A stretch of 64,000 bases of DNA. Origin: Daejeonella sp. GTDB taxonomy: Bacteria; Bacteroidota; Bacteroidia; Sphingobacteriales; Sphingobacteriaceae. The stretch's first letter is position 1; the number at the start of each line of letters is the position of its first letter. The stretch spans positions 1 to 64,000 of the forward strand of contig NZ_JAUXXZ010000009.1 in NCBI RefSeq assembly GCF_030684675.1, read 5' to 3'. Below the pieces are notes generated by a model. That model ran no database searches. It was not told the DNA's origin and was given only the letters and a program-made list of their open reading frames with translations. Made by a program: the position numbers and the translations under genes. Positions 4,814-9,070 of the stretch are shown in pieces.

Positions 4814-5029
4814 ATGATAGCTGTAAAATTATCAGTTCAACAACTAATAGAAGCTCTTAGCGGATTAAGTGAAAAGGAAAAAATCCGCGTACGTGAGGCA
4901 CTGAATAAGGATTTTGAAATTGCTGATACTGAATTGGAAGAGCTTTTGAATCGTAAACGTGATTTTCAGGCAGGCAGAATAAGTTCACGTCCCTGGGCTG
5001 AAATCCGGAGAAATTATGATAGAGTATAG
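4814..5029 (+). CDS. Addiction-module antitoxin (unstable antitoxin family)
   Basis: A 71-aa acidic/helical protein (VQQLIEALSGLSEKEKIRVR, then ELEELLNRKRDFQAGRISSR followed by PWAEIRRNYD). The layout matches the short putative addiction-module component family (PF09720-like), where the C-terminus wraps the partner toxin. It overlaps the following ParE/RelE gene by 14 nt, implying translational coupling. The assignment relies on size, pattern and partner; there is no catalytic motif to confirm it. Confidence 0.75.
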   Translation: MIAVKLSVQQLIEALSGLSEKEKIRVREALNKDFEIADTELEELLNRKRDFQAGRISSRPWAEIRRNYDRV

Positions 5030-5333
5030 TTTAGAGCTTCTTCCAATTGCAGAGGAGGAATTAAATGATTCTTTCGAATGGTACGAGAAACAGTGTGATG
5101 AACTTGGACATGAATTCATAAATGAGGTATCCCATTACCTTTCAATAATAGAACGTAACCCATTACATTATCCTTTACGTTACGGAAAAGATTTACGTTT
5201 TGCTCCCCTAAGTAGATTTCCATTTCTGATAGTATATTGGATCGAAGAAAGTAGGGATTTAATAGTTGTAGCATCATTGTTCCATACAAGTCGTAGGCCA
5301 AAAAAGATCAAAAACATCCGTAAAAATCAGTAA
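5016..5333 (+). CDS. ParE/RelE-family toxin
   Basis: A 105-aa protein with the RelE/ParE fold pattern: LELLPIAEEELNDSFEWYE, then a long helix with LGHEFINEVSHYLSIIERNP, and strands LRFAPLSRFPFLIVYWIEE and LIVVASLFHTSRRPKK. The ending FHTSRRP is typical of the family. RelE members cleave ribosome-bound mRNA while ParE members poison gyrase; sequence alone does not separate the two here. It starts inside the antitoxin gene (overlap 5016-5029), so the pair forms one operon. Confidence 0.82.
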   Translation: MIEYSLELLPIAEEELNDSFEWYEKQCDELGHEFINEVSHYLSIIERNPLHYPLRYGKDLRFAPLSRFPFLIVYWIEESRDLIVVASLFHTSRRPKKIKNIRKNQ

Positions 5334-5600: not shown

Positions 5601-6131
5601 TTATATTGTATTTATACCCCTCCAGTATCGCCATCCGGCGATCAGTATCAACAGGCTTACCAGAACCATAATAATTTTAGAGAATGCAATTCTGCTTTCC
5701 TTTTCCTTAATCTTCGAATCTGTATTCTGTTCCATCCTCCGACTAAATTCAATATTATCCATTTCAAGGTTATGGACATCCTGAGGTCGATTCGAACTGT
5801 CAATAAGACTCCTTAATACATTTTGTTTTCCTTTAATACTGATACTGAATGCTTTTCCTTTAAATCCATTTTCCAGCGAAAAACTAAATGTATCAACAGG
5901 AAAAATATCTACCTCATAGATATGGCCGGTAGAATCGGATAATCGGATAGTATGGCTGTCTCTCAACCTGGCTTGCAGCTCTGAGCTAATCATGGTTTTC
6001 TGATCCTCCGATATCTGCATTTTGCTTTTCTGACGATTCAGAAATTTATCAATCTGGCATGATGTTAAAGTCATTGAAATGAACAAAGCACCCCCAAAAG
6101 TATATCCTAACTGAATTATATTGATTTTCAT
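5601..6131 (-). CDS. Putative lipoprotein with C-terminal membrane helix, unknown function
   Basis: A 176-aa protein not recognised as a known family. The N-terminus has a lipoprotein signal with lipobox TLTSC (Cys25), then a central beta-rich segment (TIRLSDSTGHIYEVDIFPVD) and a probable helix with NNIEFSRR-like charged residues. A transmembrane helix at about 148-168 (KIIMVLVSLLILIAGWRYW) precedes a short basic tail. It is the last gene of the minus-strand group that contains the CHAP and DUF6266 genes, but a 553-nt repeat-filled gap separates it from them. Confidence 0.6.
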   Translation of the reverse strand: MKINIIQLGYTFGGALFISMTLTSCQIDKFLNRQKSKMQISEDQKTMISSELQARLRDSHTIRLSDSTGHIYEVDIFPVDTFSFSLENGFKGKAFSISIKGKQNVLRSLIDSSNRPQDVHNLEMDNIEFSRRMEQNTDSKIKEKESRIAFSKIIMVLVSLLILIAGWRYWRGINTI

Positions 6132-6684
6132 GATTATTGATTTTTATGTTCTTCTATTTTTTGTTTTGAACATTAGTTTTTTGCAGCATTGGCTGATGGC
6201 TGGTGCGCGCACAATGTCATTAGTTAAGGATTGGGAATACAGCTTTCGGGAATGACAAATCGTGAGAGAGGTAAGGGGAGATTTCAGCCTTCGCTGGAAT
6301 CGGCTCAGCTTAATACTAATTAAATGAACCAATCCGCTGTAAGATCATACCTTCAGTTCACATCAATAAATTTTCACATTATACCCCAAAATTGCAATCC
6401 CCGAAATACATTAAGACAAAAAATGAGTAAAGGGAAGTTCCTCATTTCGATTCCAAGGCTGGAATCTCCTTCATCCCCCCACACTTGTCATTCTCGCGGA
6501 AGCGAGAACCTCCTTACCTCCAACAACATTTATCAACCGATAACTATAGGTTCCTGCAAAAGTGGGAACCAATGAGCCTAACCATACTCTTAAACAGCAC
6601 GCACACCGCGCGTTCCAAAAACAATCTCAACCTTATTAATCGTGCTCTGAACATTACAATTTTCTGCTTTTACCTTTCAGCTTT
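6132..6684. repeat. Repeat-filled spacer, including a 30-nt element shared with 18.6 kb
   Basis: 553 nt without a gene. 6484-6513 (CTTGTCATTCTCGCGGAAGC plus ten more bases) is the exact reverse complement of 18602-18631. GGAATGACA and CTTCGCTGGAATCGG near 6250-6305, and AAGGCTGGAATCTCC near 6455, belong to the same word family. CAATGTCATTAGTTAAGG at 6210-6227 recurs in altered form near 14428. No promoter or reading frame stands out. Confidence 0.65.
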
Positions 6685-7689
6685 CTACTGATACCTTGCC
6701 ACCTGATAAACAGATTTAACCAAGCGCCTTTTTCTGTATACACCGTCACCCTCCCTGCCACCTGAAACATTCGTATTACCCTCAACTGTAATCAACCAGG
6801 TTCCATCCCATTGATCAATGAAACCGGCATGGGCAATGCGCTTTTTGTCAGGAAAGTAGATACCGAAAACGTCTGCTGTCGCAGGTTGCCAGTTACCTGT
6901 TGTCTGTTGCCTGTTATGAGTTGTTACCCGATAGCTATTGGGTTGCCTGTTACCAGTTGTCTGTCTGGTCGGATAGAGGGATGTTATTGGTGAGTGTCTT
7001 GATTCCTGGCTCCCTACCTGACCGGCAGACAGGTTGGTTCCTGACTCACCTGACAAGCTTTTGGCTTTCAGCTTTCTGCTTTCAGCCTTTGTAGTTGTTG
7101 GGCGGACAGACATTGATCCTAAAGAATTTCCGTCCTGATGCTTTTCCCTGCTTTCAACTTTCAGCTTTGAGCTTTCAGCTTTGGTCCATATCACTTTACT
7201 ACCCTTAAATAATTCCGGCGACCAGCCTGTCTTGGGGTTCTCTACATTGGCCTGCCCAAAAACCCAGCAGACAAAGGCAGCGCACCAGGGGTTTCCTTTT
7301 GGAAGGTTAACATAGCGGAGGTATTGCTCTACCACTGCACCCGAGTTTGATCCTTTCTCGCGGATGCCGATCTGGCTCATATAGATGATCACTTTCTGAT
7401 TGGCAGGCAGCGACCTGAAATTGCTTTCAAGCTGCCTGTCTGAATAATTGGTAAAGGCAGGCCAAATCGTAATGATGATCCACCAGGTAATGGCTTTAAA
7501 TATGAGCACCGCTGATGCTGCGAGGATTATGGCACTTAAGATTCCGGGATCAATTGCTGCGGCAGATCCATCCACCTCTCGAATCAGATAAGGAAACAAT
7601 AAGAATGTGGCTATGACCACTACTATGCCTGCAAGCTCCTTTCTGAAAGGAAAATGCCATGGGAGATAATATTTATTGAAGATTTCCAT
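6685..7689 (-). CDS. CHAP-domain peptidoglycan hydrolase with a repeat-derived insertion
   Basis: A 334-aa protein read from the ATG at 7689; a longer frame to 7836 exists but overlaps the upstream gene. Two membrane helices (about 19-37 and 52-76) precede a CHAP-type cysteine hydrolase: IIYMSQIGIREKGSNSG, the nucleophile in GNPWCAAFVCWVF (Cys136), the His in KKRIAHAGFIDQW (His287) and ITVEGNT (Glu303). Between Cys and His lies about 100 residues of atypical, Ser/Lys/Gln/Thr-rich sequence (about 170-272) encoded by intergenic-type repeats: AESSKLKVES, AESRKLKAKS, and TTGNRQPNSY/TTGNWQPATA. Removing it would give a normal CHAP loop (KVIWTK to DVFGIYFPDKK). It lies 19 nt after the second DUF6266 gene, suggesting an operon. 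The enzyme would cut peptide or amide bonds in peptidoglycan. Confidence 0.8.
   Translation of the reverse strand: MEIFNKYYLPWHFPFRKELAGIVVVIATFLLFPYLIREVDGSAAAIDPGILSAIILAASAVLIFKAITWWIIITIWPAFTNYSDRQLESNFRSLPANQKVIIYMSQIGIREKGSNSGAVVEQYLRYVNLPKGNPWCAAFVCWVFGQANVENPKTGWSPELFKGSKVIWTKAESSKLKVESREKHQDGNSLGSMSVRPTTTKAESRKLKAKSLSGESGTNLSAGQVGSQESRHSPITSLYPTRQTTGNRQPNSYRVTTHNRQQTTGNWQPATADVFGIYFPDKKRIAHAGFIDQWDGTWLITVEGNTNVSGGREGDGVYRKRRLVKSVYQVARYQ
6874..7182. repeat. Dispersed repeats inserted in frame within the CHAP gene
   Basis: This stretch holds a copy of the window's palindrome (CCCGATAGCTATTGGG, 6927-6942), tandem words of the form GTTGCCTGTTACCAGTTGTC on the plus strand (6890-6965), CTGACCGGCAGACAGG around 7018-7033, and CTTTCAGCTTTCTGCTTTCAG words (7067-7085, 7148-7180). 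The same palindrome occurs elsewhere only between genes. The whole segment keeps the reading frame of the hydrolase. Confidence 0.75.
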
Positions 7690-7708
7690 GATTTTGATTT
7701 TAAGATGA

Positions 7709-8377
7709 TTAATTAAGGTTAATAAGTGATTCTGAAAAAGAAACATCCGGTAAATTAACAGCTCCCAAATACATACTGTTTGATACTGCTTTGCCTTTGG
7801 CATTAATGAAATACATATAGGTTTCCAACTGCTCACCGATAAAGCTGCAGGGCAGACTAAGCATACTCCTACAGTCGTCGGATCTCAGTTCAAGATTGTC
7901 GCAAACCCATTTCTTTCTAAGTGGGTTATAAGCCAGCATGTATAGCCTCCTGTCTAAATAGAAATCAGGGGTATCGGGACACCAGCTGAAGATCAGATTG
8001 TTCTGACTTGCATGTATAGCATGGCAGTGGCCAATAGAGAGTCTTCCGGAACTGAGTTGAATAGCAGCATAATTGAAGCAATAATCAGGGCAGGTTCCTT
8101 TAATAGCCTCTTTTAGAACTTTGCTCAGGCAGCAATTGAAAGCTGAAATCCTTCTTTTACCTTTCTCAGGTAATTGTTTCAGCTGATCACGCAAAGGAGA
8201 GATTAAAGCGATAGATAGCTTAAATTTCCCCCTTTGTGATACTTGTTTGTTGCCTGCAGGCTTGATTGATTTACGCGGCATCTGCCGGATGCAATAGTGG
8301 TTTTTATACCTGTACCCTATAATGTTTCCAACTTTTCCGCTGAAACCTCCCAGGATACCATGATGTAATATAGCCAT
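7709..8377 (-). CDS. DUF6266 family protein (copy 2)
   Basis: A 222-aa protein opening with the family signature HHGILGGFSGKVGNIIGYRY. It aligns along its length with the neighbour at 8432-9070: FN..LSKVLKEAIKGTCPDY, YMLAYNP, and FIGEQLETYMYFINAKGKAV with SNSMYLGAV. It lacks a signal peptide and has several cysteines that copy 1 does not. The function of DUF6266 is not known to me. A terminator (8405-8425) separates it from copy 1, and the CHAP gene follows after 19 nt, so it is probably transcribed with the CHAP gene. Confidence 0.72.
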   Translation of the reverse strand: MAILHHGILGGFSGKVGNIIGYRYKNHYCIRQMPRKSIKPAGNKQVSQRGKFKLSIALISPLRDQLKQLPEKGKRRISAFNCCLSKVLKEAIKGTCPDYCFNYAAIQLSSGRLSIGHCHAIHASQNNLIFSWCPDTPDFYLDRRLYMLAYNPLRKKWVCDNLELRSDDCRSMLSLPCSFIGEQLETYMYFINAKGKAVSNSMYLGAVNLPDVSFSESLINLN

Positions 8378-8400
8378 GATTGATTTTTTTAAGGGTTTTT

Positions 8401-8425
8401 AAAAGAGCCGGGAATAACCCGGCTC
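8401..8425 (-). terminator. Rho-independent terminator after DUF6266 copy 1
   Basis: GAGCCGGG (8405-8412), loop AATAA, CCCGGCTC (8418-8425) make an 8-bp stem. Read on the minus strand the stem is followed by TTTT, and it lies 7 nt past the stop of the upstream gene ending at 8432. Confidence 0.75.
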
Positions 8426-8431
8426 ATGAAT

Positions 8432-9070
8432 TTATGCGATCACTACTTCGCTGATATACAGACTGGTAGAAACCGTTTTTTTATCTGCTGAAATAAAAGC
8501 AATCCAAACATGCACGGTATCCCCCACAAAGTCGGCAGGCAAATCCATGCTATCTGCCAGGGTGCTGCGATTGTCGCCATCAGTCGTAAATACATATTGC
8601 GACTTTTCGGGGTTATAAACCAGCAGCATAACTTTATCGCCAGGTTTGGCAGTACCTGAAGCAGAATTATCCTGCCAGGTGACATTTACTTTGCTGGCCG
8701 CAGAATTGACTGCCGGACCCCAGGCACCGGTCAGGTTGCCCTTACTGATCAATACCTTTGGATAATCGATCGTCAGATCAGGATAAGTCCCGGTGATTGC
8801 CTCTGCAAGGAGCTGGGAGGTAGCCACGTTGAAAGCAGTCTGCCGGTTGGCAAGACTTTTATATCCTATACTGATCAATGCACTGATCGGCTGGAGAAAG
8901 CCGGTGGCCATCCCCATTTTTGCCCGCTGGAGCATTTGTAAATCAGTTGGGGCTTTACTTGAGGGTTTGGGCAAACTGCGCATATACTCAATACCGTTCC
9001 AACTACTGCCCACTACTGTTCCGACCTTGCCGGAAAATGAGCCTAATATTCCTTTTTTATATGTTCCCAT
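8432..9070 (-). CDS. DUF6266 family protein (copy 1)
   Basis: A 212-aa protein with the family opening KKGILGSFSGKVGTVVGSSW followed by GIEYMRSLPKPSS. The remainder contains AEAITGTYPDLTIDYPKVLIS, VNVTWQDNS, MLLVYNPEKSQYVF and WIAFISADKKTVSTSLYISE, suggestive of a two-sheet beta domain after an alpha-helical N-terminus. No signal peptide or membrane segment is seen. It is the first of a tandem pair and ends at a terminator. The role is unknown; pairing with a cell-wall hydrolase is the only contextual clue. Confidence 0.72.
   Translation of the reverse strand: MGTYKKGILGSFSGKVGTVVGSSWNGIEYMRSLPKPSSKAPTDLQMLQRAKMGMATGFLQPISALISIGYKSLANRQTAFNVATSQLLAEAITGTYPDLTIDYPKVLISKGNLTGAWGPAVNSAASKVNVTWQDNSASGTAKPGDKVMLLVYNPEKSQYVFTTDGDNRSTLADSMDLPADFVGDTVHVWIAFISADKKTVSTSLYISEVVIA

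Follow-up and report, generated by a model that had tools for sequence, protein, structure and literature searches.

Heptanucleotide direct repeats of the TAACTGA type have been described in Beggiatoaceae, Cyanobacteria and five Bacteroidetes, where they are mostly intergenic (MacGregor 2015, PMC4679880). Copies inside genes belong for the most part to short hypothetical proteins or lie at the ends of proteins; forward arrays occur only at the ends of ORFs because they encode stops, and the reverse orientation reads LSVISYQ (PMC4679880). Heptameric G-rich repeats of Xanthomonas and Nostoc are described as over-represented in non-coding DNA and under-represented in genes in an article that also cites tandem heptanucleotides of Calothrix (PMC4692102). 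The Rickettsia palindromic elements measure 100-150 bp, fall into families and are described as often lying in frame in genes (PMC3767692, PMC10969869), with a conserved peptide for each defined family (Ogata 2000 and 2002, as cited in PMC10969869).

The locus described here is a predicted CHAP-type cell-wall hydrolase gene of Daejeonella sp., located in the window, a stretch of 64,000 nucleotides of contig NZ_JAUXXZ010000009.1 (Table 1). An ORF without stop codons extends over positions 6685-7836 of the minus strand (383 codons), and the start of the gene is probably the ATG at 7689, which gives a protein of 334 residues. Between VIW and DVFGIYF, this protein carries an insert that reads TKAESSKLKVES...NWQPATA (6874-7185). 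The original prediction, made from the letters of the window, had proposed that about 100 residues of repeat words separate the catalytic Cys136 and His287, and that the frame is kept and the CHAP domain resumes behind them. Both points hold: the stretch comprises 104 stop-free codons, the gene contains no stop or frameshift, the core is intact, and Cys136 and His287 are invariant in an alignment of 67 homologues.

Table 1 Features of the CHAP gene, its repeat insert and the surrounding cassette.
Feature	Position in the window	Strand	Basis
Fused CHAP-type cell-wall hydrolase gene (predicted)	6685..7689	-	ORF; membrane segment, CHAP N-half, repeat insert, CHAP C-half
Part derived from the relatives' separate upstream membrane gene	7375..7689	-	Two predicted helices; 81% identity to the separate TM gene in L044
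CHAP N-half with catalytic Cys136 (codon 7282-7284)	7186..7374	-	85% identity to L044; Cys invariant in 67 homologues
In-frame repeat insert	6874..7185	-	104 codons; largely predicted disordered
CHAP C-half with catalytic His287 (codon 6829-6831)	6688..6873	-	86-87% identity to L040 and L041
First GAAAGCT-type heptad array (KAESSKLKVES)	7145..7182	-	Genome-wide matches and period-7 scan
Second GAAAGCT-type heptad array (KAESRKLKAKS)	7053..7090	-	Cassette-type junction at or just before the array
CAACAGG/CAACTGG-type heptads flanking the palindrome (QTTGNRQPNSYRVTTHNRQQTTGN)	about 6890..6965	-	Genome-wide matches
Palindrome CCCGATAGCTATTGGG, 16 bp, within the insert	6927..6942		Pattern counts in the genome
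GAAAGCT-type heptad word right after the CHAP stop codon	6654..6684		Genome-wide matches
Downstream small lipoprotein with C-terminal membrane helix	5601..6131	-	Spanin-like layout by eye; 88% identity in the L040 cassette
Upstream DUF6266 gene of the same cassette	7709..8377	-	Pfam PF19781, 5.1e-24; 84% identity in L040
Second DUF6266 gene of the same cassette	8432..9070	-	Pfam PF19781, 8.1e-66

The window protein scores 19.1 bits against the Pfam CHAP profile PF05257, below the cut-off of 26, and the match stops where the insert starts. A relative with a short loop and no insert scores 31.8 bits, above the cut-off, and matches a phage endolysin PHROG (5.6e-19). A search by sequence among solved structures gave no match. 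Its structure was modelled with AlphaFold from an alignment of 67 sequences, an earlier model built from 19 sequences having been set aside as too poor (pLDDT 49). The CHAP core (about residues 95-168 and 273-334) has pLDDT values mostly above 90, a helix at residues 170-188 is of moderate confidence, and insert residues 195-264 fall below 50, this low-confidence stretch being located between strands 166-169 and 274-279. The insert is predicted by this model to form a disordered segment between two strands of a confident CHAP core. A structure search with the model returned the CHAP endolysins LysK, LysIME-EF1 and PlyPy among the top matches, with weak E-values around 0.01. On the profile match of its relative and the catalytic Cys and His, we assign the protein to the CHAP amidase family and predict a peptidoglycan hydrolase activity.

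A blastn comparison with the rest of the genome shows 47 further partial matches to the insert, in the blocks 6891-6965, 7053-7090 and 7145-7182, and most of the 29 matches that we inspected are intergenic. Positions 6966-7052 and 7091-7144 are without a further match in the genome, and clear repeat makes up only about half of the insert. In a 464-kb sample of the window genome, which is about 90% coding and in which genes were delimited with a simple gene-calling script, clear period-7 arrays number 17 in spacers (35 per 100 kb) and 4 in genes (1 per 100 kb); when up to 3 mismatches are allowed, 13 copies of the palindrome fall in spacers and two in genes, the CHAP insert holding one of the latter. 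The same sample contains no clear arrays with periods of 4-6, 9, 10 or 12. A count with a reversed control pattern was set aside because this pattern is itself a heptad-like word (50 forward matches). The words are concentrated in spacers, as predicted, but are not strictly confined to them: IspG carries the palindrome and heptads too.

The self-match of the insert at lag 7 is 132/302 (0.44, p about 1e-9), compared to 26% for gene bodies. None of 20,000 codon shuffles reaches this value, and the CHAP gene ranks first for lag-7 self-match among 354 sampled genes. The heptad words belong to several families (GAAAGCT, CAACAGG, TTATCAG, GACCTCA, TTATAAG and GAGTATT) that share the period, so that the repeated unit is a rhythm of seven nucleotides with no fixed dictionary. 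The rarity of the exact 12-mer TTGCCTGTTACC, present in only three copies genome-wide, follows from this, because the words are degenerate period-7 units. The spacer 3′ of the CHAP gene (window 6460-6515) holds a CATTCTCGCGGAAGCGAGAACC-type inverted repeat that belongs to a different repeat family.

The gene is part of a cassette (DUF6266, DUF6266, membrane-CHAP fusion, lipoprotein), both ends of which match L040 at 84-88% identity. L044 is the closest match for the membrane part and the CHAP N-half (81-85%); from mid-insert onward, the sequence is closest to L040 and L041, at 98% over 83 bp and then 86-87%. The first of the two GAAAGCT arrays of the insert is L044-like and the second is L040-like, as expected if two paralogous genes had recombined at an array. 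Judged by these identities, the window gene is a mosaic of two cassette types joined inside the insert. In comparison to L044, the window lacks about 885 bp at junction 7374, a stretch that comprises a DUF6266 gene and the signal peptide of CHAP. This loss fused the membrane gene in frame to CHAP and, as a result, the sole CHAP copy of the window genome is without a signal peptide of its own. The fusion and the recombination of two cassette types had both been missed in the original prediction. Over the L040-like part, the palindrome CCCGATAGCTATCGG gives L040 a net surplus of 15 bp at a place where the window has none, and the window insert has its palindrome copy elsewhere; this net gain or loss separates two insert stretches that are otherwise 97% identical.

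A cassette of this kind (DUF6266, small membrane protein, endolysin-like CHAP protein, lipoprotein with a C-terminal membrane helix) recurs in window 5601-9070 and in L038-L050, and is present in several copies per Daejeonella genome. Its layout resembles a holin/endolysin/spanin set and could be that of a domesticated lysis or release cassette; phage family searches with its membrane, lipoprotein and DUF6266 genes returned no significant matches. A ParE-like toxin gene is found at window 5016-5333 (Pfam PF05016, 24.7 bits).

Period-7 arrays are also found in frame within the Daejeonella enzymes IspG (at two sites), MnmE and MqnD, identified by their GcpE (407 bits), MnmE equivalog (397 bits) and VitK2_biosynth (238 bits) matches, respectively. 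All three window genome copies carry in-frame heptad inserts (IspG, L191; MqnD, L293; MnmE, L319). The first IspG site has loops of 25-89 residues in 16 aligned Daejeonella proteins, most of them with species-specific arrays such as KELSVDSYQLSDNR or TTDNRQQ repeats; the whole genus has a longer loop here than most other genera, and the short state of this site is thus seen mainly outside the genus. The second IspG site has 35 residues with heptads in the window genome and G018, and 13-27 residues in the others. The MnmE site is located in the GTPase domain and flanked by NKKD and SAK; three species have 15 residues there and seven others have 35-94, and this single site holds three unrelated heptad families that differ by species. 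In MqnD, several species have loops of 15-23 residues, and loops of 45-96 residues are found in others. Other species are without arrays at the MnmE, MqnD and second IspG sites. Insert lengths are often 7 residues apart (21 nt, three heptads), and the MqnD loops of 31 (G008), 45 (G000), 59 (G010) and 66 residues (G007) are separated by steps of 14, 14 and 7 residues. Inserts of IspG and MnmE contain the TAACTGA unit or its complement, the place of which is taken in the CHAP insert by GAAAGCT and CAACAGG.

At the first IspG site, other families of the class have repeat-like segments (GGRREQRGESREQRAESKG in L206 of G037 and FQVSGSKGNDQKSGTFNLKPET in L211 of G041), and the habit may therefore extend beyond the genus. 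Two genomes of the Daejeonella group, G002 and G009 (L281, L282, L285 and L288), are extremely rich in TTATCAG/CAACAGA-type heptads, with 108 and 62 matches, respectively, to a short repeat-peptide query. Several further candidates were rejected. A GDP-mannose dehydratase (C13:67734-68870) has an ESLKLKAESLK stretch, but its relatives have the same length there, which indicates no insert. For an exporter-like protein (C13:64880-67429, MILLNTQYSILNTQYS) and a 298-aa protein, the heptads at the N-terminus may reflect only a wrong start site, and those of a 1103-aa ORF of G002 are probably a start-site question as well.

In the pooled inserts, self-match amounts to 0.50, 0.46 and 0.43 at lags 7, 14 and 21, respectively, against 0.25-0.26 in the flanking gene bodies, and is near 0.25 at all other lags. 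The frame in use contains no stops across 32 inserts (1755 codons), a count that is partly conditioned by the inserts having been read from open frames; stops make up 3.1-8.9% in the five other frames and 7.6% in spacer arrays. In tblastn searches, nearly all full-length IspG, MqnD and MnmE matches are likewise without stops. The used frame of the inserts has the best codon score among the frames, and this score fails to separate insert from gene body (0.164 vs 0.167 per codon). Forward arrays stay open because their stop phase is changed, e.g. to CAACAGA, in place of the TGA that the related TAACTGA type would produce. The inserts are apparently translated into fast-changing, disordered protein segments.

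We consider it likely that the CHAP insert is translated spacer-type repeat DNA, the arrays of which grow, shrink and recombine in a mostly neutral manner, as they would also do in IspG, MnmE and MqnD. Degenerate tandem arrays of 7-nt period and small palindromes are numerous in Daejeonella genomes, mainly in spacers, and we propose that such repeat words entered the loop between two strands of the CHAP fold. They would be retained at this site because a disordered segment can be accommodated there, and selection would remove the copies that break the frame. The arrays would lengthen and shorten, probably by replication slippage, in keeping with the 7-residue steps of MqnD and other proteins; as 3 and 7 share no factor, the frame is kept only by changes of three heptads (21 nt, 7 residues) or by compensated changes. 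Furthermore, the arrays would act as joints for recombination between paralogous cassettes, which may have built the long mosaic insert of the window. Since the same process would act on the loops of IspG, MnmE and MqnD, it would be a general, mostly neutral feature of these genomes and not an adaptation of CHAP.

The palindrome that is present or absent between near-identical insert stretches, the scatter of the same word families over the genome, and the MnmE insert of G007, which forms one long hairpin from inverted heptad arms (z -2.6, 0/200 shuffles), would also fit a mobile element, i.e. a small non-autonomous unit of heptad arms and palindrome that transposes whole into genes as Rickettsia palindromic elements do. 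We regard this as doubtful, as neither constant ends, nor a constant unit length, nor a target duplication is seen, and the 21-nt length steps point to array slippage. When the window insert was compared by eye with L040 and short-loop relatives, no terminal inverted repeats or target-site duplication were found. The CHAP insert folds slightly better than its shuffles (z -1.9) but is not one hairpin, and a strong inverted partner accompanies only 5 of 25 spacer arrays; inverted pairs thus exist, but the elements are not defined by them. The proposal that the repeats are mobile is borne out to the extent that the net 15-bp palindrome gain or loss and the 21-nt steps suggest mobility, with neither a transposition mechanism nor a target duplication seen.

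Between VIW and GDVFG, other genera mostly have a loop of 11-16 residues and at most about 22, apart from longer loops in Parapedobacter. Daejeonella CHAP loops range from 22 to about 103 residues and their content is different in each copy; even the close orthologues L039 and L048 have only the first part of the loop in common. The homologue alignment suggested in the original prediction thus gives a loop that is short in several other genera and varied in length and content within Daejeonella. Moderate-to-large CHAP loops with repeat-like peptides are also found in L083 and L091 (Olivibacter), L081 (Pararcticibacter), and L111 and L134 (Parapedobacter). Such differences in every paralogue and species of a secreted-type hydrolase could speak for a hypervariable exposed segment that is kept for target range or escape from recognition. 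This we find improbable, considering that (i) the same kind of insert occurs in the cytoplasmic IspG, MnmE and MqnD, (ii) the N-terminal linkers of some CHAP paralogues carry the same kind of words, and (iii) the CHAP loop is predicted to be disordered. The loop is variable, as anticipated, but a reading in which exposed variability is its purpose is weakened by the cytoplasmic counterparts. A device dedicated to variation is improbable, given that housekeeping enzymes of the cytoplasm contain inserts of this kind too.

There is similarly little to recommend the reading that the window gene is a decaying pseudogene, gathering spacer repeats since its frame no longer matters: the gene is the only copy in the genome and, fused to the membrane gene, no longer has a signal peptide of its own, but it is free of stops and frameshifts, retains its catalytic and other invariant residues, and shares its type of insert with conserved full-length genes of many species. 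Hairpin-bearing bypass elements within genes are known elsewhere, but removal or skipping of the insert by RNA splicing or translational bypass is highly improbable, as neither the frame nor the absence of stops, both kept in 32 inserts, would be required if the insert were skipped.

Taken as translated spacer repeats, the inserts have a wider bearing, to which we give even odds: period-7 spacer repeats may continually supply Daejeonella, and perhaps other Bacteroidia, with new protein segments by entering the loops of conserved, partly essential enzymes and evolving by frame-keeping 21-nt steps, non-coding repeats thereby becoming coding sequence independently in many lineages. They offer a comparative system for non-coding repeats that become protein, in which close species have the same sites with and without inserts in assayable enzymes (IspG, MnmE, MqnD and CHAP amidase). 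Both the tolerance of a conserved fold for disorder and the survival in a reading frame of a repeat with a period that is no multiple of three become testable. Such loops should not be read as adaptive variation, nor such genes as broken. The original prediction is partly supported: its observation was right and applies more widely than proposed, and its interpretation (in-frame, variable, possibly mobile) was right in outline. Neither the likening to one defined palindromic element nor an adaptive reading of the loop is supported.

Compared to CHAP endolysins (PF05257), the window protein has the same catalytic Cys/His residues, the fold and phage endolysin relatives, but differs in the approximately 100 residues inserted between two strands and in the fusion to a membrane segment. 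With Rickettsia palindromic elements, as these are described in the articles cited above, the parallel extends to spacer repeats lying in frame within unbroken ORFs of unrelated genes, at the same locus in orthologues. Unlike these elements, the Daejeonella inserts have no unit element: a defined unit of 100-150 bp, conserved in sequence and peptide, is absent, genome matches are pieces of 20-60 bp, the CHAP insert is a patchwork, and composition changes between species at one site. As to a palindromic fold of the whole, the inserts differ, with one long hairpin in MnmE of G007 and no single hairpin in CHAP. The likeness is one of effect, not of structure. The G-rich heptamers of Xanthomonas and Nostoc and the Calothrix repeats are also period-7 arrays over-represented in non-coding DNA, but the former are G-rich and mostly non-coding, and the passages of PMC4692102 devoted to them describe no role in protein loops. 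In the open-access articles consulted, we found no precedent for inserts at internal positions of conserved enzymes that combine empty sites in relatives, several families of words and steps of 21 nt. The TAACTGA repeats resemble those of Daejeonella in being tandem with period 7, mainly intergenic, built of related units (TTATCAG/CAACTGA) and present in some ORFs, and their LSVISYQ peptide is also found in Daejeonella MnmE and IspG; Daejeonella differs in having many word families in internal loops of conserved enzymes, with forward arrays that are open. Heptanucleotide repeats such as TAACTGA are the closest known kind, and the Daejeonella insert is a composite.
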